Source of the DNA: Saccoglossus kowalevskii
Taxonomy: Eukaryota; Hemichordata; Enteropneusta; Harrimaniidae
Length of the DNA stretch: 64,000 nt
Assembly: GCF_000003605.2 (NCBI RefSeq)
Contig: NW_003128862.1
Location: forward strand, 1,096,660 to 1,160,659
Direction of reading: 5' to 3'
The notes under the pieces were generated by a model that made no database searches, had not been told where the DNA came from, and saw only the letters and a list, made by a program, of their open reading frames with translations. The position numbers and the translations under genes were made by a program. Each line of letters starts with the position of its first letter. The first letter of the stretch is position 1. This document shows, in pieces, positions 3,718 through 38,669 of the stretch.

Positions 3718-4036
3718 GTAAGTATGTTAGTGATCGCGTATTGGGATACTGACTGTGCATAGTTCTCCAATACAATGCCGCCAGAAGACATATTGTTCGA
3801 TAATATTTTGCACCAGACATTTATTTAATATTCAATTGATATTCAAATATCCTATTAATTCCTGAACAACAAAAATCACGATTTTTATCAGCCTACTATG
3901 ACAAAAGTCTATCGTATTCAGGGCATGGCACTCGCATGGCTCCCTCCTTTGTTTGACGTTTGATGACACAGTTTCAGTTCGTGAGAAGTCGAGTTCGGGG
4001 TGGCTACAACTTATATTTTTTTTTTCAATTTTATTA

Positions 4037-5255
4037 GTCCCCGTTCGGACGAAGTCCGAAAACGGGGACTTACAATTCGGTCTCCGTCCGTGCGTCCGTG
4101 CGTCTGTGCGTCCGTGCGTCCGTGCGTCCGTGCGTCCGTCCGGAGTCATATCTCAGAATCTCTTGGACCGATTCCGTTCATTCTTTGCATGTGCCTAGTA
4201 ATTTATGTGGGACATATGCACATGCAGTGGTTTAGCGATTCGATTCAAAATGGCCGACTGGCAGCCATCTTGTTTTTTGAAAATGTTTTATTTTGGACAT
4301 GCTTTGTCTGTTTTCATTCAAACTTGGTACATAGATTATACATGTTAGGATACATGTTCATGACGATTTATTTCACAATTGGATCAAAGATGGCCGACTG
4401 GCAGCCATCTTGTTTTTTTTGAAAATGTCGTATTTTGGACATGCTTTGTCAGTTTTCACTCAAATTTAGTACATAGATCATACACGTTAAGATATATGTC
4501 CCCGACTGTCCGTGAGTTCCTGAGTCTATCCGTCCCGTCCGTCCGTCCGTGTGTCCGCCCGTCCGTCAGTCTGTCCAGAGTCATATTTCAGAATCCTGTG
4601 GACCGATTCCGTTCATTCTTTGCATGTGCCTAGTAACTTATATAGGACATATGCACATGCAGTGGTAGCGATTCGATTTAAAATGGCCGACTGGCAGCCA
4701 TCCTGTTTTTTGAAAATGTTGTATTTTGGACATGCTTTGTCAGTTGTCATTCGAACTTGGTACATATATTATTCATGTTAGGATACATGTCCATGATGAT
4801 TTATTTCGCAATTGGATCAAAGATGGTCGACTGGCAGGCATCTCGTTTTTTTATGCGGTATCTTGGACGTGCTCTGTCAGTTTACATTCAAATTTGGCAC
4901 ATTTATATACTTTATCCATGTTAGGATGCATGTCCATGACAATTTGTTTCAAAATCTGGTCAAGGATGGTCGATTGACAGCCATCTGACTTTTTGCCTTA
5001 CTACTATATTTCCGATTTTTTTCCATTTTCATTCGTATTTGGCAGATACATCATACATATCAGTATGTTTCATAATCAGATCAAAGATGGCCGAATAACG
5101 GCTGTTTTTATTTTTGGCCATATTACTACTACACGGAACACCTGTTTTGATGTAAATAAACAATCTGTTGTATACGTCAAGTTTCAAGGACACGTTCGCG
5201 ACAACCCCTCCGCTTTAATATGACGAGCACAAAGAGAACTTAATTTAACGGGGAC
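4037..5255. mobile_element. Non-autonomous element of tandem ~140-bp units
   Basis: The left end is a hairpin (4037-4069) in which GTCCCCGTTCGGAC pairs with GTCCGAAAACGGGGAC. The right end finishes AACGGGGAC (5247-5255), the reverse complement of the first 9 bases, so the two ends form a short terminal inverted repeat. Inside is a GTCC-rich microsatellite (4084-4141 and again about 4520-4575). There are six diverged units of roughly 120-155 bp, each starting near a near-palindrome of the form ATGGCCGACTGGCAGCCAT (about 4247, 4387, 4682, 4823, 4965 and 5087). The microsatellite plus the flank GAGTCATAT...CTAGTAA is repeated about 435 bp apart, which shows a higher-order duplication. Reading frames across it are shadows of the repeat. 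I see no target-site duplication and no transposase, so the superfamily is unknown. Confidence 0.6.
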
Positions 5256-27233: not shown

Positions 27234-29660
27234 TCAGTCAAAATGATTATTTTGAACTCCAGGCAGAGTCAGACGGGGAGCGGTGGTGGGTTTCCGAGCA
27301 AAACAGAAAATAAAGAGTACTCGAAATAAAAAGTGTCCCATCCCGGGAAATTTTTTACTTATCTTATGACTACGGTGTCTTACCTTGTCAGTGTAATCCA
27401 CCTAGTAAAAGCATACTGCAAGTAAGTTGACGGGGTCGGCATTGCCCAAAGACGCTAGACGCAGACCCAATTATGGGGTAACTAGCATCCCGAAAAGAGT
27501 CCAAAACAGTTCTGCAATAGGTTAAAAGCGAGACCTGAGAATGTCCAAGGAGCGAAGAAGGGAGAAACTTTTCCACGCAAATATATAGCTCAGACTGCTC
27601 TGTTGCTTATGTGCAGAATCCCTGTAGTCGTACGGGCTGGATCAACAATCAAAGTCTGACCCACGAGGACAGAAGCCACCCTAAAAAGCCCTTCCTCAAT
27701 TAATTGCGTGTTTCTTAGGCAATAATTGATAAAGATGTTTCGCCTTTTCCAGAAGCCTGCCCTAAGCATGTGTTCCAGGGTGCCACCTGACTCAAGAATA
27801 AATGAGTTAGCAATCGCACGAACCTCATGTGCTCGTACTGCCTTGACTTCTTAGTACATCTCTCATAGCAACTCAAAGCTCAAACTGGGCATAGAAGCAA
27901 CTGCTCCTGATCCTCCAGTCCGACAATATTGGCCAAACGGGGGATCACGAATGGCTGTGGATCGTGCCCTAGGAATTTGTTCCACAACAGTCCAAGAAGG
28001 ACAAGGCCCCTAACTCAGAGCGATGTCTTCTACGTTGAATATTTCAGTGGTGCTAATTCCAGCGGTTCAAATAGTAGACCACTTAGAGCTGACAACACAA
28101 CCATGAATTCCAATTTGGTGGTACCCTAGATTGGGGTCTATGCCTCTGATTATGATAGGACAATCGGTGAGTCTTGTCCCCCCAAAAGCTCTCAATAGCG
28201 GGTGACAAGGCTGACCTATAGCCAACGATTGCGGCATAGTGCAATCCTAACTCGTCAAACAGATGGATGAAAAAATCATCTACCTGGCCAAACGTGGAGT
28301 GGCATGGATCAACCTCCCTTCCACTACACCAATCAACGTATGCCCGTCATTATAAATCGTAGGCTGCGTCAGTGGAACCAATATTCGCCCTGGCCAGGAT
28401 GTTGGCAGCCCGCTCAGATAAACCCTTCATCGATTCGAGTCTACTGAGAGCCTCAATGCGTGTAAGTGATACACTGCTGGGCTCATTGGTAGTGTGCTGT
28501 CTCGTTGGGACAGCAGATCCGGGATGTCCGAAAGCACTACCGGTGTCTCGACTAATATTTTCAACAGTAGTGGAAAACAGGTCTTGGTTGGTCAGTTGGG
28601 CGCCACCAGCGTCAAGTTGCAGGTGTGCTACTGTCAAAGTTTCCCCAGTACCTGATGAATCACTCCTTGATTTGGCACGTACGTCTGGACCTTGGCATTC
28701 AAGGGGTGTGGCAAATAGGTCTATCTTTGGATCGTCCCACAGCCGAAACAGTCTGGAGGCTATCTATTGAAGTACCTGCCACTTCGTGTTCTGGAAACGA
28801 AGTTGCTGCGAGAGGGTGTCCCTTTGACCCTTGGGAAGTGGTGTGCAGTTAGCTCCACATTGCATTCCAGGGACCAATGGGAAATTTGCTCAGACAGAGA
28901 TGCCAGTGATGAGGATTTGGTCCCCCCTCCTTGTTGATGTAGGAGAGTTTGTAGTTTGCTTAGATCCAGAACTGGACGCCAACCACCTGTAGCTTTTGAA
29001 ACTACAAACACGTGTGAGTAGAAGCCCAGACTTGTTGTTGGGTCTTCTATTGTATTGCGCCTTTTGTGAGAAAGCTGTCTGCCTCCTGTCGAATTGCCTC
29101 TACTTTGAGGGGATCCCCCAGCAGAGATAGCAGCAGAATTTTGTAACCATGTATCACCACATGTAGTATCCAGGGGTCAGTTACCCGCTGCTTCCTGTGT
29201 ACAAGAGGGATATGTGGCATTGGGTTCAGCGATTCTACTTGGTGGCCATGTCTCCTCCGCCAAAGTATGTCCCCCATCACAGTTTTTAAGAGTCGAACAG
29301 CTCAAGCTGCACCCACGAAATGATTGCCCATCCCCCTTGTTGCAGGCGAATTCGTCAACTCGCTTCCCCCTTCCTTCTCCTGGAAGAGTTTGGGCGCTTG
29401 CCTTCTGGCTGCTTCTGGCCAGTGGGTGGCGACTTTGGCCATTGCGTTTTCTTCGCTTGGGGTCTTTTTGCTGTGATGCAAATTCGGCGCGGAGAAAACA
29501 GAGAGTGAACATAAGGCAAGCTGGTGCTGACCTCTTGACCTTGCTACATGATGCGTAACAAAACAAAAAATCAAAAATCCTGAGGTCATGGGGCTTCCCC
29601 TGACTTAGATTTATCTCTCCATCATTGGCTGAATCGTAGATTAATGCCTACAGTTCAAAA

Positions 29661-29938: not shown

Positions 29939-29944
29939 TTTAAT
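29939..29944 (-). terminator. Candidate poly(A) signal for the distal receptor isoform
   Basis: ATTAAA on the minus strand, about 270 bases downstream of the exon 4b stop. It is the first canonical-type signal I see after that exon. Confidence 0.35.
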
Positions 29945-30212: not shown

Positions 30213-30405
30213 TCAAAGCGCGTTCTCCAGCATGGATTCGTCGACCGTTGTTATCATGTCTGATCCGTTCCTCATCAACTTCATCCCCTGAGTGGTACTA
30301 TACGTGCCGCTCAAATTTGTTGGTCGTTGAGAATCGACCCGTTCACCTGGCGTCCATTTGAAACACGGCAGCCATCGCAGAGCCTTCCTGAAGCCGCGTC
30401 GGAAT
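30213..30405 (-). CDS. Tachykinin-type receptor, exon 4b (distal alternative C-terminus)
   Basis: Acceptor TTCTGTTACAG then ATTCCG. The first base completes the split codon from exon 3 (AG+A, Arg335). Sixty-three codons and TGA follow, a length that fits the frame exactly. It begins FRRGFRKALRWLPCFKW, which is the helix 8 segment that follows LNDR in tachykinin receptors, with a palmitoylation-type Cys at residue 349. The remaining tail of about 48 residues is Ser/Thr-rich, with an acidic VDESMLE near the end and ENAL at the C-terminus. It matches the family pattern (LNDRFRxGF) better than exon 4a, so it is probably the ancestral form. Use of this exon gives a 398-residue receptor. Confidence 0.85.
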
Positions 30406-33400
30406 CTGTAACAGAATAAATGTATTTCACTTATTTAAGGACATATCATTTTTGGTTTCGACATTTTTACTAAGTAAGTTATAATATCCCCTATGCTGCC
30501 TGTGTACGTCATTAATCACAACTTGATTGGTCATATACGTCATCAGTTTCGCCATACGTCATCAAATTACACCACAACATAGGTAGGTAAATACTTACGT
30601 TTCGAAATTCCGATTAAAAGTTTAGCAACTTGTATTAAAATGTGATGACCGTGAGCGTTGAAGAACGACTCTGAGCATGCATGTGTTTTTTTTTAAACTA
30701 AAACGCAAATGGTTAGTGTTCGTGTCAGGCATTTTATCCTTCAAGTGCAATTGCGTGTATTCGGTTTTCTATATTAGAATGACATCGATCGATTTCGTAT
30801 CCGTTTCTAAAGCGAGTAGTACCGACGTGCTAAATAGAATTCTCATCTTATACTTACAAGATTATGAACATTATATACCTAGTTTTTGAGTTTTTATAAG
30901 TCGGCGTAAACTTGGTGACCTTGCCACGTGAACGTCATGTGATTGAGTATATGCTATATGGATACGAACTCTCAAGTGTCTACAAGAAATGACGGACACT
31001 TCGGAGTGGCCGCAGCACACTAAGTGTGCATGTGAATATTGAGTATGCTGTAAGGAATGTGCAGAAACATAATAAACTCATAGTAACACACTGAACCATT
31101 ATATTTATTTATTTATTTAATAAAATTTAATAAAATCTTGCAATAATTTGGATGATTTCATGGTTATCCTGAGAAAAAAATATATGTAAGTTTACTGATA
31201 GGCGAAAGGAACTCGAATTGTGGTTCAATGCGGTTAATTCGATCAAAAAGCGGTTTTCGAATATGGTTATATGCTGGACAAACTACCAGAAAATGAGTTC
31301 TTCTTCAACAGCATCTATACATATTTGGCAGGTTCTATTTTCCACTGGAGTTCCATAATATCTACCGGTCTCAATGCGTAACTTATGATTAGAGCACCGA
31401 AGTTTAGTTAAAGCTTGTCTGTACACGGGAACACGAACGATATCCAAATAATTCTCATAAAAAATATTTGTTTTAAATTGGCGAAACGTTCGTAACTTAA
31501 CGTTCGTAATATCTCGTGTTGAATAATATTGCCAAGGATTGCGCCCTATTTTATAAAATATTAAATGAAAATGATTCGTTGTAAATTAACTTATTGATTA
31601 TAGATCACTAAATTTATCTGTGTTATTGAAAAAGCAATTTTAAATCTCAGAAACACCACCAATGACGGTATAATAAATAATATAAATCATGCTGAGATTC
31701 AGCCGCTGCTGACACAATACTAAAATTGAGTCCACATTCACTCACATAACTGTCTGCATGATCAAATGCTTATGTTTGCGCCACCAACGCCCTTATGTGT
31801 GAAGACCTGCGTTATCATGTATTCATTACGAAATGCACTAAAACGAGTCCAGAAGCATAAGCCGGATTCTGATTGGTTCTTAGGGATGCGTGAACAGTAG
31901 AGATTTATGTAACATGCAATGGTCTCAGGCCGAACAAAACTGCATTAAAGATTTAGGATATTTTACAAGAAAACTAGTGAACAGAGATGATGAAAGGTGC
32001 TATGGAAATAGACAAAGACGATTCAGTAATGTGAGATAAAGTGGATATAATAATTTGTTCGAACAATTTCTTTGCCAGATGAAAGACTGTTCTTTGAGTG
32101 TGAAAGCAACTTGGGGTTTAATTGAAATATTACATACCGAAAATTGTTAATAATATGTATGTATTTTATATGCACATAAATTAATACGTGCAAGACAGTT
32201 TAATGATAAGGAGTGTGATTTATGAAAGAAATGTGATTGATTAACATATGGATTAACTTATATGAAATAATTTCGTCATGTAACTCTTTAAAGCCGAGCA
32301 GCTCATTGAATGTACTACTTTCCCAGAAGCTATTTCACTAATGCCACAATAATTAAAAATAAATTAGCAGAAAACCGGTTAGCAAATAGCATTTCAGATA
32401 CAGAACTAAAACATTGTACTCAACGTAGTGTTTTAATGTAATGCTTTTCAAAATTAGTCATGCAATTTAGTCACATTCCATAAGGGGTCATAACACGTGG
32501 GAGAAAATGACCAACCAGAAACGAGCTTTGCTTTCAAACTCATGAGACCATCTTACTTCTGGTCGTGGACACGTCATGTACTCGGTTTTTGTATCTGACT
32601 TTCGTGTATCCCAACGATTTGTTCCATTCGTCCGAGGTATATTTTACACACGGAAGCCATTGGAAAACTTTCTTGAATCCTATTCTATAGCTATAAATGA
32701 ATGGAGTGAGGGCTTGGAATGCTGATAGTATATGAAAAGAGAGAGTTCAATTTAATTATACGAAGGAAATAAAAACAAATCCTGTCTATTGTGAGAACTG
32801 GGGATTTAGAAATAGTAATATGCTGATGGAAAGTTCACCGGAAACACGGTCAACATTGACTGTCTTGTGCAAGTGCTGCTGTGTAAAAAACTGGCTTCCT
32901 TTTGAACCAAAACAAGTCTTTCAATGTATTCCGAGTTTGTCCCAAGCAGAATATTTATTATGTAGTAGCCGTTAATGTCGTCGATAATCTCCACAACCTG
33001 TGGCAAATAAACCTTCAAACACATAGCTCCATATGCTAAAGTTAACGACATCGCATAAATAAAAGAAGAAATACAATATGGATGACAACTTACCTATCGT
33101 TCAGCCAACAGTAAATGAACGGATTGTACATGGAATTGCTCATTCCCAACCAAAACACACCCATGTAAATCTCACGGGCATTAGGATGACTGTACAATTC
33201 ATCGCTGTAGCTTCGTCCCAGTAAAAAGTAGATATGAACCGGAAGCCAGCAGATTGCAAAGATAATAACGACTAGAATCATCATTTTCACAACCTGTATA
33301 TAAAAAGACTAACAGTCATTACATATCGTACATTATTAATTTGGGTCACACGTATCAACGTATGTTGCAACGACGAATACTCACACACATATTATATTCT

Positions 33401-36400
33401 TATTATGTATTTAAAATAAAAAAAATGGTGATACCAAAAAATGAATATTTGAATGAATAAATTAGTTTAATGTACAAAGGCAGAAACTAGTTAAAAACAA
33501 CCTGATTCATTGCCGCATCGAGGGAGATCTCCATTTTGTATCACGTGTTAACATCGCAGTTATAACAGTGTTGGTGAATTTATAAAGTGTTCCCTTAATG
33601 CATAGACAAGTTTCCTGTTTCCTGTACTACAATTATATAAACATACATAAAGCCTACCAGGAATATATATGTTAACACACTCTGAGACCGTTGAGACAAA
33701 CAAACGCTCTACCGGAACAAAATATTTAAACAAAAGAACGCATTTAATCACACATCTACAGTCGCCAAACTTATGCAGTGATGAATTCGCTTGTACATTA
33801 AACGTACGTCTCGTACATTAAACTGATCAACGAGCTCGGCGATTTGGTTGCATTGGTAATAATGCCGTTCCTAAAACCTAGTAATAGATTGTAAATACCA
33901 CGTCGTGTCACTCACATTATTCAAATGCTTATCGCCATAAATTAGTCAATGCCATATACAATTCAACATATATTCATTTAGAATGCCTATTTGTGAGGCG
34001 TGACCTAATAACATTAACAATATTGTATAATCTGATCTGCTGTGATGTTCAATAGATGCACTGATCTGATAATATCACGTGTCCATCATATAAATGTAAT
34101 GTTTCTAATGTTCAATGGATGAACTGATAATATCACGTATACATCACATACATGTAATGTTTCTAATGTTCAACGGATGCATTGTCTGAAAATATCACAT
34201 ATGCATCACATACATGTAGTATTTCCAATGTTTAATACAAAAAGCGTATCATGTTAATCAATGCATCATGATGACGTGATGGTAAACGAAAGCACGGTGA
34301 AGCGAGAACTGAACTTCGGTTACTCGCGCTATAAAATGAAATAGTTATAATGGAAAACGTTCCGAAAACAATAAAAATGTCATGAAAATATAATTGATCA
34401 CTTGAATTTTACAACACGCGAGAAACTGACTTTTTTACGACGTTGTGTATGTTTTCGTATTTGATAATGGTATATTGCTGATTGTGTTTTTCACACGCAA
34501 TTGTATGTCCCTGGGCATTTTTTCTGCCAATAAATTATTCCGAATTCTTTATTCACATTTATATTACTTTAACAGTTACAATTTTGGGCGAATTATGATA
34601 GAGTGTGTTTCGTTTGAACATTTGAATAAATAATTAGTGTAATATACCTTAACAGCTAAATTCATGAAATAGTTCCGAATAAAAATAGCATCGAAAGCTT
34701 CTCGTTGTATTCATTAAATGGAATGATATTGTTTCTTCACTAGCAATCAATTGTTTTTTTAACGTAAAAAATCAGCTGTTACTGTGATTTTACTTTGTCC
34801 AAGAAGCATATTAATCAATACAGAGCAAGGAACATAGATATAATTCAACAATTACACAATTATTGTCGGCGTGTGTCGTGTGAAGCAGCATGTCGTGTTG
34901 CTCTCGAGCATTGTAAACAAACACGAAATGATTTGCCATCGACTGTGTCAACACAAACCGATAATGCCGACTGTTTAATCCCCTTATAGTAGGATGAAAT
35001 CTCGTAATTACAAATGTGTGTATCGCGACATATTTATACATCTATGATGTTACAGGTGAACAAATAATTTCAGAGAGCGAATACTGTAAAGCCATTAAAT
35101 ATGCAATGGGTTTTAATGCTATTTTCGTTAATAAGTGAAATCTGATAATTGAAATCTACCTGAATATGTAAAAGAACAATAAAAATTGTTGCTTCTTTGA
35201 AAAAATCGTGACATTAAAACTCAGGGAATAAGCTCAAAACATCAAAATTGTGAAATCAATGATGGCAGCTGCTAATTTACATATGACAAACACGGTTTTG
35301 ACGATTTTTAGTAAACAGACCTAAACAAATCTAAATATTACAATATGACCTAGATCTCATTAATTGCAGGACAATTTAGACACAGTGTTCGAATTTAGCG
35401 GATTTTTTTTTCATGGCAACAGGAAATTGATTTTAATTTCAGTAGCTGGTCAGCCATATTTATTGTACTGAAGTGTGTTTTGCAAATATTCCGCATTCAT
35501 AATACATATGAATGTGACGTCATAACACACAACACTTCATTCTAACGTCGAAGTTAATGCACACTCACTCCCTTAAGAATTATTGAATCAGTGACGTGTA
35601 TTCTGTATACGTATTGTCCTTTGTTAGTACAGCTGGAACAGAATGAATGTGTGTAATTTTACTTACAAGCGTTTTCCATACACAACCTACATTTGTCAGA
35701 ATGATTATCGTATCCTGATTTCATTGGGGTTGATTTTGTGGACAGACATATAATTATAACAATAAATACGATTCTTGATATGTTATTTCAATATACATAC
35801 CTTTCTTTTTGCCTTTAACTGTTCTCTGTGCCTGTTTGATATCTCTCCAGGAGCCTGACTGCCCCATAGCTTAATACCAACGATACTATAAGACACGCCT
35901 TGAGCAATCAACGGTAGAAAATATGTGGCTACCATGAAACTGAAGCTGTACCTATATATATATATATAAAGGGTAATTGTGTTCGACATTGTATTACACT
36001 TTCTCTTGTATCCACAGCAACGAAAACAGCAGTCATTGTGTAAATGATTGTTTCATGGCCTCATTCACCCACATCATGATCAGAATTACTTCTGAATCAT
36101 GCCAACTGTATATATACATCAATGTCGTTTTGTAATACAATATAAAAAAAGGCATTTGGGTACATGGAACATAGTGAATATTGTAAGTCGCTCATTGAAC
36201 TCTCACGTAACATCAGCATCTGCCATCAATTGTAAAATTTTATCGAATCCCATTATGCCATTAACCAAATAATATCACGTGTCGGAATGAATTGAACCAA
36301 TATTTTAATTTGCATATGTTTTACTAGACATCATCTGATATTATTCGACATATAGACTGGCAATACGATCAACGTAATATTATAGTGATTTAGATTCACG

Positions 36401-38669
36401 GGTAAAAGAAAACAAAAACCCTAACATTAAACGTAGAAAAAACAACCCTTAGAACCCCGTCGGCAGGCTAGTCACACTAAGTATTATAAAATTCGTATTG
36501 TACATTGTTAATTTAGAGCATACAATCATAGAACATGTACTTTTTTATTTACACTATCAATCTGTCAATCTTTGACTCGTCCTTTATTTGACTGTACTTT
36601 TAATGAAAACGTTTAACTAACTATAAAAGCTTACAGTAATATCCAACTCTCTGAATAGTCACCTCTCCGAATGTATTAGGAAACGATGTTCGTCACTGCG
36701 ATTGTAGTCATGAGAGACGTTTCAGAACTACATTAGAAATAACTATTTAGATTTAATACTAAACTCTTTAAATATAAATCGCGGCTCCATTCAGAGGTTC
36801 CCATTTTTACCTTTACACAACTGTGTCGATAAGTCGGTTTAAATGATGAATTAAAAATGCGGACCACGCATCTTAAAATTGTGCAAGGCGTGGTGAATAA
36901 AAAGCATTGTTTTAGTGTCAGACTTGTGATATTATCGCCTCGTCTAGCATATACAGCCTTATTTTATGATCACTTTATCTCGTCCAAATGAAACACTTCG
37001 CCGTTTTATCAATATATTTTATATTACTGCTGTGCCTCCTTGCATAAATTATAGAGCCGTTTACAAAGCGAAATAACCCGAAAACGTTTTTCAGTAACCC
37101 CGGTGCCGTTAAACTAAATCGTCGTCATAACATGGTGAAATGAAATGAAATGTTATCAAGCAGAAACAAACTTAGTGTGATTATTGCCGTATAGTTAATC
37201 ACTAGCACGAACTATATGCATTTATATTTCGTATCTATGTTATATCACGTGTTATGTTTTTTATAAAACCTTTACAATTAAAAGTAATAAGGGATTATTT
37301 AGTAACATATAGGACATTAAATTACAGTTGTGTTCCACAATTTATCTAACTGCATTATAGATTATTAAATATAAATAAAATCAGAATTTCTCATTTGGCA
37401 TTTAGTATTTGGAATGTGTAGCGAAATTGTGCTAAAGTATAGATAGGATTGTACGATATGCGAGAATTGGAATGTAAAAACATGACAAACAATGCTCATA
37501 GTTTCAAAACATTGTGTGCGATTCCACAAATGCCAAACTATTTTGGGATATTTTCACGTTTAATAATGTTCTATACATATTTGATGGTGGTTAATTTTGA
37601 TGAAAAACAGATATCGCAACGTCCTATTCCTCTCTGCAAAATAAAAGTTTTTACATCTAATTCTAATAAAAAGAGAAATCCAAGTTCTAAATCAAATATT
37701 TGTGTGCAGACGTTCGAACTGCACATTTCACGCACTATAATATCAATTCAAATCACCAGAAGGAATAAAACGTATTTATGAATAATAAAATTGTCTGATG
37801 CTGGGAATGCAAGGAAATTCACAGATATCATTCAGGTGATTTCACCTCGCTATAATTGCCTTCCCACTGTACAGATACACATACAAGCATTTTGTAATCA
37901 CAACTGCAAAAGGTTTATGAATATTCTAAACTTTGTCTTTTTAGGATAATACTAACATATCACTAGTATTCCGGCCTGCATAACTCATTATATCATGCTG
38001 TTATAATAAGACTTACCAGAAGTACCATTCTCCATAATTTTCCTGGTCGGGCCATATTGTCGCACAGACTCTTCGTACGTAGATGGGCGTGTCAGTAATC
38101 GCAGGAGGAGGACATGCCCCAAAGTCAATATTAGTAAATACAAGCCAAGGGAGGGCGATTGCGGCTGACGCAATCCAAACGACGGCGATAATTGTTTTAG
38201 CGAGAACCTTAGACATCCTCGGTCTCATGGGGTGAACTATGGCGATATATCTGTCTATACTTATAGCCATTAGAGTGAATATACTTGAAGCTACTGTTAT
38301 TGGTGAGATAAATCGTACGATCTTGCAATAAGCATTCCCAAAATACCAATCGTTTCGGAGGACGTAGGTGAACGTAAACGATATATTAAAAATCGCGTTT
38401 AGGGCATCGGCGAGAGCGAGATTAACGATGAAATAGTTGGTTACTGTTCTCATACGGCGATGGGCGAGGACGATCCACATAACAATGCAGTTTCCCACCG
38501 CAGCGGTTACAATCATTGCGCCAAAAATTAAAGTCCATATAAAGGTCTCTATGATCGGCTGCTGGAAATCTTGACATGTTTCGTTCCAATTATACTCGTA
38601 GTCGTATTCTACCGATGGTGCGAGTGTGGAATGAAGAGTAAAGTTCAATCTTGCGATGTACAATGCCAT
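30213..38669 (-). CDS. Tachykinin-family neuropeptide receptor (GPCR), spliced, two C-terminal forms
   Basis: A rhodopsin-class receptor for tachykinin-like peptides at the plasma membrane; the family mainly couples to Gq and calcium signalling (family knowledge). Exons: 38669-38017, 35951-35801, 33293-33094, then either 32690-32540 (384 aa) or 30405-30213 (398 aa). All junctions are GT-AG and phases agree. Seen in the protein: sequons N9 and N29, TM1 about 44-69 with N60, LALAD in TM2 (D88), C115 at the top of TM3 and C202 in loop 2 for the disulfide, DRY 139-141, LWGSQAPGE and AKRKVVKMMI around loop 3 and TM6 (diagnostic of tachykinin receptors), CWLP 283-286, NPFIY 325-329, and helix 8 with C349. 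Length is typical of the family. The first ATG (38669) has A at -3 and G at +4, with an in-frame stop upstream. Leucokinin- or NPY-type receptors are less likely because of the loop 3 signature. The exact orthologue is not assigned. Confidence 0.93.
30505..30562. promoter_or_regulatory. Cluster of three TACGTCAT words
   Basis: TACGTCAT occurs at 30505-30512, 30536-30543 and 30555-30562, each containing a CRE half-site (CGTCA). The cluster lies 100 to 160 bases upstream of the exon 4b acceptor in the direction of transcription. It could be a regulatory element or a decayed repeat. No function is shown. Confidence 0.3.
31100..31590 (-). mobile_element. LINE 3' fragment (non-LTR retrotransposon)
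   Basis: The minus strand encodes the C-terminal end of a LINE ORF2: KIGRNPWQYY, then ALTKLRCSNHKLRIETGRYY, then CQIC followed by EEE, HFLVVCPAYN and RKPLFDRI. This is the CxxC...HxxxxC zinc-knuckle-like tail of many invertebrate non-LTR elements. One frameshift separates the CQIC part from the HFLVVC part. The fragment ends toward lower coordinates in an A/T-rich tail of TTTATT-type repeats (about 31100-31128), as expected for a 3' end. The upstream RT and endonuclease are absent, so it is 5'-truncated. It sits in the intron between exons 4a and 4b, in the same orientation as the receptor gene. Confidence 0.75.
32432..32437 (-). terminator. Candidate poly(A) signal for the proximal receptor isoform
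   Basis: ATTAAA on the minus strand about 103 bases after the exon 4a stop. It would allow exon 4a to act as a complete terminal exon. Confidence 0.4.
32540..32690 (-). CDS. Tachykinin-type receptor, exon 4a (proximal alternative C-terminus)
   Basis: Acceptor CCATTCATTTATAG then CTATAGAATAGG. The first base completes the split codon (AG+C, Ser335), and 49 codons plus TGA follow in the exact frame. It begins YRIGFKKVFQWLPCVKY, which aligns residue for residue with exon 4b (FRRGFRKALRWLPCFKW), including WLPC at 346-349. After position 354 the two tails are unrelated; this one is short and basic (TKVRYKNRV) and ends RSKMVS. A second AG, six bases downstream, is in frame and would give Arg335 followed directly by IGFKK. 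The alignment with 4b indicates a duplicated exon. It could be a decayed duplicate, but the frame is intact. Confidence 0.78.
33094..33293 (-). CDS. Tachykinin-type receptor, exon 3 (TM6-TM7)
   Basis: Acceptor TATATACAG then GTTGTG; donor GATAG|GTAAGT. It encodes residues 269-334 plus two bases of codon 335. VVKMMI opens TM6, CWLPVHIYFLL carries the CWxP switch, and MSNSMYNPFIYCWLND is TM7 with NPxxY. If the donor is not used, translation stops right after LNDR, so an unspliced transcript would lack helix 8. The exon joins exon 2 in phase 0 to rebuild AKRKVVKMMI, the family signature. Confidence 0.93.
33294..35800 (-). other. Intron 2 of the receptor gene
   Basis: 2507 bases, GTATGT donor and TATATACAG acceptor. 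It contains a three-copy minisatellite (34047-34229) and a palindromic CRE (35515-35522). Small open frames in it have no support. Confidence 0.85.
34047..34229. repeat. ~60-bp minisatellite, three copies
   Basis: Units start at 34047, 34110 and 34168 (63, 58 and 62 bases). Each contains GTTCAA(t/c)(a/g)GATG, AATATCAC(g/a)T and a CATCA...ATGTAATGTTTCTAAT-like end, with a partial fourth start at 34230. It lies within receptor intron 2. Confidence 0.85.
35801..35951 (-). CDS. Tachykinin-type receptor, exon 2 (TM5 and loop 3)
   Basis: One base completes Trp218, followed by 50 codons (residues 219-268) and the donor AAAG|GTATGT. YSFSFMVATYFLPLIAQG is TM5. SIVGIKLWGSQAPGEISNR and QLKAKRK form the short third intracellular loop that identifies tachykinin receptors. 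The acceptor is unusual: a (TA)8 repeat directly abuts the AG, where a pyrimidine tract would be expected. Confidence 0.93.
35952..38016 (-). other. Intron 1 of the receptor gene
   Basis: 2065 bases, donor CTG|GTAAGT, acceptor (TA)8 followed by G. A 110-codon antisense frame (37449-37781, plus) is AT-rich, starts at a non-ATG codon and is probably chance. Nothing else is recognised. Confidence 0.85.
35953..35968. repeat. (TA)8 microsatellite at a splice acceptor
   Basis: The repeat supplies the last 16 bases before the final G of the intron 1 acceptor on the gene strand. Only a short CCCTT precedes it. Confidence 0.9.
38017..38669 (-). CDS. Tachykinin-type receptor, exon 1 (N-terminus to loop 2)
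   Basis: 217 codons plus two bases of Trp218, ending at donor TTCTG|GTAAGT. It encodes an extracellular N-terminus of about 40 residues without an obvious signal peptide and with sequons NFT (9) and NET (29). TM1 to TM4 follow: VGNCIVMWIV, RTVTNYFIVNLALADALN, NDWYFGNAYCKIVRFISPIT, MAISIDRYIAIVHPMRPRM. Then comes an extracellular loop 2 with VCATIWP. The reading frame extends 10 codons further upstream but contains no earlier ATG before an in-frame TAA. The ATG context (A at -3, G at +4) is strong. Confidence 0.94.

Follow-up and report, generated by a model that had tools for sequence, protein, structure and literature searches.

The full-length NK1 receptor comprises 407 residues. In vertebrates a full and a truncated form of this tachykinin receptor are found; truncation is brought about by omitting exon 5, without a second homologous exon. 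The truncated human receptor lacks 96 residues (PMC4278563, available text). Two different tails on one tachykinin receptor have been described in Aplysia: apTKRPR-A and apTKRPR-B arise by alternative splicing from a single gene, only the intracellular C terminus distinguishes the two proteins, in length as well as in sequence, and their desensitization is not the same (PMC11365428, available text). Both isoforms desensitize; apTKRPR-B, which contains more Ser/Thr, does so more strongly and in a partly phosphorylation-dependent manner. Similar isoforms are suspected by the same authors in oyster, silkworm and fruit fly; as most like the Aplysia pair they name bNK1-B and -C, two isoforms of the NK1 receptor of Bufo marinus (PMC11365428, available text).

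Alternative 3’ exons are also known from other peptide receptors. In the human neuropeptide S receptor the alternate terminal exons 9a and 9b provide NPSR1-A and NPSR1-B each with a tail of its own, 29 and 35 residues long; whether 9a and 9b are homologous is not stated in the available part of that paper (PMC3142248). The insect ETH receptor, likewise a neuropeptide GPCR, has the mutually alternative 3’ exons 3a and 3b, and both isoforms are present in all arthropods examined (PMC8175484, available text). These exons begin where TM4 ends, cover about 60% of the protein and change the ligand response, whereas the exons described here encode helix 8 and the tail only. For hemichordates a 2019 review lists several tachykinin receptors, whereas a tachykinin itself had not been identified in this group (PMC6880623, available text).

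Here we analyse a receptor gene of Saccoglossus kowalevskii that shares with the Aplysia gene the combination of one tachykinin receptor and two, here potential, C-terminal tails, in another animal group. According to the initial annotation of the locus a duplicated cassette of helix 8 and tail had not been described in this family. Alternative C-terminal tails had in fact already been published for Aplysia; the novelty of homologous, duplicated exons that each contain a helix 8 stands, because the available text of that paper is silent on them (PMC11365428). Among the papers listed in searches of the open-licence PMC literature we found no tachykinin receptor with homologous last exons each encoding helix 8.

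The receptor gene and its two possible last exons

The window, i.e. the whole stretch of DNA analysed, comprises 64,000 nucleotides (C2070:1096660-1160659). It contains a tachykinin-type receptor gene on the minus strand (38669-30213) with two possible last exons, 4a and 4b (Table 1). As the initial annotation had read it, exon 3 stops two bases into codon 335 and the frame is carried on by 4a as well as by 4b, each with an AG acceptor, a fitting phase, an intact frame and a stop. WLPC occupies residues 346-349 in both cases and is followed by 35 or 49 residues, respectively. Counted from the assumed ATG the predicted proteins are 384 (with 4a) and 398 residues (with 4b) long.

Table 1. Receptor gene and neighboring features, positions within the window
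Feature	Position	Strand	Description
Exon 1	38017..38669	-	begins at assumed ATG (MALYIAR...); donor GTAAGT, phase 2
Exon 2	35801..35951	-	YSFSFM...AKRK; matched in 5 other paralogues
Exon 3	33094..33293	-	VVKMM...NPFIYCWLND + 2 bases of codon 335; donor AG/GTAAGT, unspliced gives NDR-stop
Exon 4a, alternative last exon	32540..32690	-	AG acceptor; helix 8 YRIGFKKVFQWLPC + 35-residue tail; TGA stop
Exon 4b, alternative last exon	30213..30405	-	AG acceptor; helix 8 FRRGFRKALRWLPC + 49-residue tail; TGA stop
ATTAAA, poly(A)-signal-like	32432..32437	-	102 bases past 4a stop; weak
ATTAAA, poly(A)-signal-like	29939..29944	-	268 bases past 4b stop; weak
Insertion between 4a and 4b, about 404 bp	31105..31508	-	LINE-3’-end-like: short ORF + AAATAAATAAAT tail

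Both predicted isoforms match PF00001 (7tm_1) with an E-value of about 1e-63, indicating a seven-helix core of the rhodopsin type. In a sequence search of the PDB the best 11 of 882 matches were substance-P, neuromedin-K and substance-K receptors or their chimaeras (1.8e-88 to 6.5e-73), followed by the PrRP receptor (3.3e-54, among the best 60 of 882). Receptors of the luqin type, the sister family, are absent among the best 60 of 882 matches and could thus not be contrasted with the NK type. The protein contains AKRKVVKMM; together with 4b it also reads NDRF, but with 4a NDS-YR stands in its place. With the NK receptors as its best solved relatives, the gene is by its sequence a tachykinin-type class A GPCR, as the initial annotation had proposed.

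The helix-8 segments of the two exons, YRIGFKKVFQWLPCVKYTSDE in one and FRRGFRKALRWLPCFKWTPGE in the other, align without gaps over 21 residues (BLOSUM62 score 70, reached by 0 of 20000 shuffles). The common segment of 4a and 4b seen in the initial annotation is thereby confirmed; its extent had been understated, as it really comprises helix 8 plus about six residues. Past LPC the tails are unrelated: 19112 of 20000 shuffles score as high when the 4a tail of the C14/c1045 copies is compared with the 4b tail of the c864 copy. The 21-residue alignment bears out the homology that had been assumed, and on this evidence 4a and 4b are an adjacent pair of homologous exons, as expected from a tandem duplication. 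Both are also retained among the paralogues. A helix-8 profile run over the six frames of the 64 kb gave 50.5 for 4b and 50.4 for 4a, top scores that follow by construction from the presence of both exons among the profile rows. The next best score was 13.4 as against about 50, and therefore a third exon of this kind is not apparent in the window. The amphipathicity of the 4a helix 8 is unremarkable in the window copy (a fraction of 0.195 of 5000 shuffles is as high).

Repeat-like sequences lie in and next to the gene. The insertion between 4a and 4b, which resembles a 5’-truncated LINE, is absent from the five other copies with readable flanks, which adjoin there (L010, L011, L014, L015, L016); its ORF has no match in Pfam or NCBIfam. 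A repeat within an intron has units of about 63 bases; a few of them stand at 34235-34045, and the c1045 copy of the gene contains an extended array (L009, about 3900-5050). Just 3’ of 4b, at 28083-29647 on the minus strand, broken ORFs resemble by eye an element bearing a reverse transcriptase (GGWRPVLDLS...); neither Pfam (two pieces searched) nor NCBIfam (three pieces) yielded a match.

Paralogous copies and constraint on the last exons

A search of the genome (572 Mb, 4830 contigs) identified at least nine close paralogous loci including the window copy. Seven of them have a close first exon: five on C2070, of which the window copy is one, one on C129 and one on C3406, the last being cut by the contig end. 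The other two are C14, where exon 3, 4a and 4b lie next to a gap, and C4136, which has 4b only. The five C2070 loci are located near 636k, 857k, 962k, 1052k and 1135k (the window), spaced 80-220 kb apart and in both orientations. In exon 1 the mean dS among copies is 0.24-0.27. An origin as haplotype duplicates was rejected for the five C2070 loci because exons diverge by 2.5-14% between copies and these five are all on one contig; for C129, C3406, C14 and C4136 such an origin would still be formally conceivable. A further relative is found at a contig end on C842 (L008, L019), with 56% identity in exon 1.

The assembly also includes a mitochondrial contig (C4830, 17037 bases; L038-L039). COX1, named by family search, is opposite in strand to the other genes, named by eye, bar one that is ND6-like. 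ATA occurs at COX1 sites that are usually Ile, AAA at Lys sites and AGA at one CYTB Ser site, and TGA encodes Trp. Presumably ATA is Ile, AGA Ser and AAA Lys here, and the gene order is of the deuterostome type, fitting a hemichordate and speaking against a mollusc.

Seven of the nine loci have an assembled 4a site; the other two, c864 and c636, have a run of N there (C2070 856-866k and 635-655k). Searching the genome with 4a returned 13 matches, namely six 4a exons, four 4b exons and three helix-8 exons of C593. The 4a acceptor, TTTATAG/CT, is identical in all six loci that carry the exon, and the frame is open in five of them (window, c1045, c954, C3406, C14). The 4a exon of C129 is frameshifted by a 1-base insertion within the helix-8 codons. 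C4136 has no 4a, because its similarity starts only just past the end of 4a. Exon 4b was recovered at eight places and is open in each of them; in c954 it lacks 6 bases without a shift of the frame. The TGA stop of 4a is private to the window copy: the five other 4a copies have CGA and read on to SRV-stop, an ending that the window 4a lacks because its stop comes earlier. SRV-stop is the terminus of the 4a tails of L009, L010, L014, L015 and L016; this S-x-V terminus, we assume, is a possible class I PDZ ligand pattern.

Among the six 4a copies pairwise distances average 0.041 for exon 3 and 0.087 for 4a, compared with 0.13-0.29 for the surrounding non-coding segments. The 30 bases that follow the stop codon of 4a are conserved to much the same degree as the exon itself (0.067). 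Variable columns amount to 33 of 157 in 4a versus 115 of 279 in the flanks (p=1.5e-5), gapped columns to 1 versus 141; exon 3 varies less than 4a (21 of 200 columns, p=0.007). Exons 1-3 have a pooled pN/pS of 0.08-0.145; the corresponding values are 0.30 in 4b (8 copies) and 0.48 in 4a (5 copies, C129 excluded). In a neutral simulation (star tree, C14 copy as root, 20000 runs) amino-acid changes in 4a were as few as observed in 0.245% of runs. All five copies stayed free of stops in 14% of runs, and an open frame by itself is therefore weak proof of coding. Group-wide, 4b appears from these ratios to be kept by selection. The same data argue moderately for 4a having been maintained as coding sequence across copies, under looser constraint than exons 1-3.

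Given its short length (50 residues), 4a could be taken for an accidental open frame or for a stray piece of sequence without any past as an exon: of the 145 AGs from exon 3 to 29900, 6 are followed by open frames of at least 49 residues. However, 4a is homologous to 4b and to the C593 helix-8 exons, its acceptor and frame are conserved, and it diverges less than the intron. A chance origin is rejected because of this homology, the conserved acceptor and the conservation relative to the intron, and we regard such a history as extremely improbable. Since 4a is open in five of six loci and less variable than the surrounding intron, it is a long-established coding exon.

The picture differs for the window copy taken by itself. 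The private changes of its 4a comprise 8 nonsynonymous and 1 synonymous; for the remaining exons of this copy, taken jointly, the counts are 8 and 23 (p=0.001). No sign of present purifying selection is seen in this 4a. Its 4b, scored on 8 copies, has 1 nonsynonymous and 4 synonymous private changes (p=0.02 against 4a). When both exons are scored on the same five copies, the contrast becomes 8:1 versus 2:4 (p=0.089). Constraint on 4a in this copy is most likely weak or lost, judging from the substitutions; drift or selection for change would each fit the ratio. Because the private changes mostly alter amino acids and the last two residues are gone, the window 4a may be giving up its role or acquiring another.

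One explanation is that 4a was an ancestral working exon, which it still is in some sisters (c1045, C14), and is decaying in the window copy and in C129, so that 4b alone is used there. We consider this possible but unlikely. Besides the ratio of 8N:1S and the private TGA in place of CGA, the frameshift in C129 and the absence of 4a from C4136 speak for it, and so does the 4a of c1045 and C14, where private changes jointly number 0 nonsynonymous versus 3 synonymous. On the other hand the frame, the acceptor and the ATTAAA past the stop are all intact in the window 4a, positive selection on the tail would yield an equal ratio, and the contrast between 4a and 4b depends on the 8-copy scoring of 4b, as given above. 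Within 4a the window copy does not differ significantly from the other copies pooled (p=0.18).

The reading that we prefer, in which both exons would provide tails, has to accommodate uneven ratios among the copies. On the equal set of five copies the private N:S counts for 4a and 4b are, apart from those of the window copy, 4:1 and 0:3 in c954, 0:2 and 3:1 in c1045, 0:1 and 6:2 in C14, and 5:3 and 2:1 in C3406. In 4a the changes of c954 and C3406 thus lean towards nonsynonymous, as in the window copy; in 4b no constraint is evident for C14 (6N:0S when scored on 8 copies). The window copy and c954 seem to hold 4b and alter 4a, and c1045 and C14 the opposite. A label shuffle gives p=0.034 for the unevenness among copies; groupings reach p=0.007 and 0.044 but were chosen post hoc. 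Pooled over the five copies, 17N:8S in 4a stand against 13N:11S in 4b (p=0.39), and a clear split in constraint between the two exons fails on these equal sets. A specialization of each gene copy on one tail is a hint, no more.

Origin of the exon pair

C593 carries a second cluster of tachykinin-like receptors (L032-L036), about 40% identical. These more distant paralogues, among which the three best first-exon matches are 39-42% identical, lack intron 3: exon 3 and the tail are undivided and contain FRNGFKYVFRFLPCVHYTPTE and near variants of it, similar to both 4a and 4b. Because of this twofold resemblance 4a and 4b look like descendants of an exon of the C593 type. Scored against three C593 rows, the 4a of C14 reaches 81-85, the window 4a 68-72 and 4b 66-78; the human NK1R and NK3R rows favour neither exon.

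The simplest reading of these alignments is that a single exon coding for helix 8 and tail was duplicated first and the gene multiplied afterwards. The 4a of the less changed copies would then have retained more of the old helix 8, and 4b the usual Arg at the junction. No homology is claimed between the C593 tails and the tails of either exon: 1190 of 20000 shuffles score as high for the 4a tail, and 6357, 2509 and 1302 of 20000 for the 4b tail.

A wider and rather improbable proposal is that tachykinin receptors have switched tails at the intron after TM7 since ancient times. On this view the boundary is common with vertebrates, and the paired last exons described here and the paired tails of Aplysia would be one old arrangement, kept in protostomes and in a probable deuterostome. 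Here it would have been multiplied with at least nine genes, whose copies may divide 4a and 4b among themselves.

Predicted use of the two tails

We infer that 4a and 4b probably serve as alternative last exons, derived from an old tandem duplication of a helix-8/tail exon, and that transcripts ending in one or the other give the receptor two tails. Usage of both exons, poly(A) choice and the effect on signalling are predictions from the gene structure. The donor of exon 3 would be joined to 4a, with polyadenylation soon after, or 4a would be skipped and 4b joined instead. Either product would comprise the seven-helix core, helix 8 with its terminal cysteine and a Ser/Thr-bearing tail, the tails being different; from residue 335 onward there are 10 Ser/Thr in the 4a form and 12 in the 4b form. 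With unlike tails of this kind, phosphorylation and arrestin binding would be expected to differ between the two forms, and so would their recovery after desensitization, comparable to the different desensitization of the Aplysia isoforms. In the window copy 4b would be the default and 4a a regulated or minor choice.

AATAAA or ATTAAA occurs within about 260 bases of the 4a acceptor in five of six copies, the exception being the frameshifted C129; this evidence is weak because AT-rich DNA contains many hexamers of this kind. When the 145 AGs between exon 3 and 29900 are ranked by a crude score, the acceptor of 4b comes 10th and that of 4a 13th, and therefore neither stands out. The AG at 32722, 31 bases ahead of the 4a acceptor, ranks 2nd.

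In the alignment with the NK1R chain 2ks9_A, residue 335 corresponds to residue 311. Together with the loss of 96 residues in the truncated NK1 receptor, this alignment indicates that the tail is decided at one and the same point in NK1R and here. The donor of exon 3 reads AGG TAA in all six copies looked at, and retention of intron 3 would therefore end the protein after NDR. It is conceivable, though very unlikely, that both exons are used and that 4a chiefly lowers the output: transcripts that end in 4a or retain intron 3 would yield a short or poorly regulated receptor and set a dose rather than two signalling modes. The conserved AGG TAA, a stop at a residue equivalent to position 311 and the precedent of the human truncated form fit such a role. 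However, 4a contains a full helix 8 with its terminal cysteine and is under constraint as a group, which would be needless in a mere carrier of a stop codon.

Two alternative tails on one receptor core thus are our favoured interpretation. The homologous pair of last exons is real, and what is new about it is a variant of the known variation in receptor tails; use of 4a in the window copy is in some doubt. Two helix-8/tail exons on one core represent a natural experiment on tail function, and the paralogues supply several exon pairs of common origin and varied constraint. If both exons are used, tail switching, known in Aplysia, would extend to another animal group.
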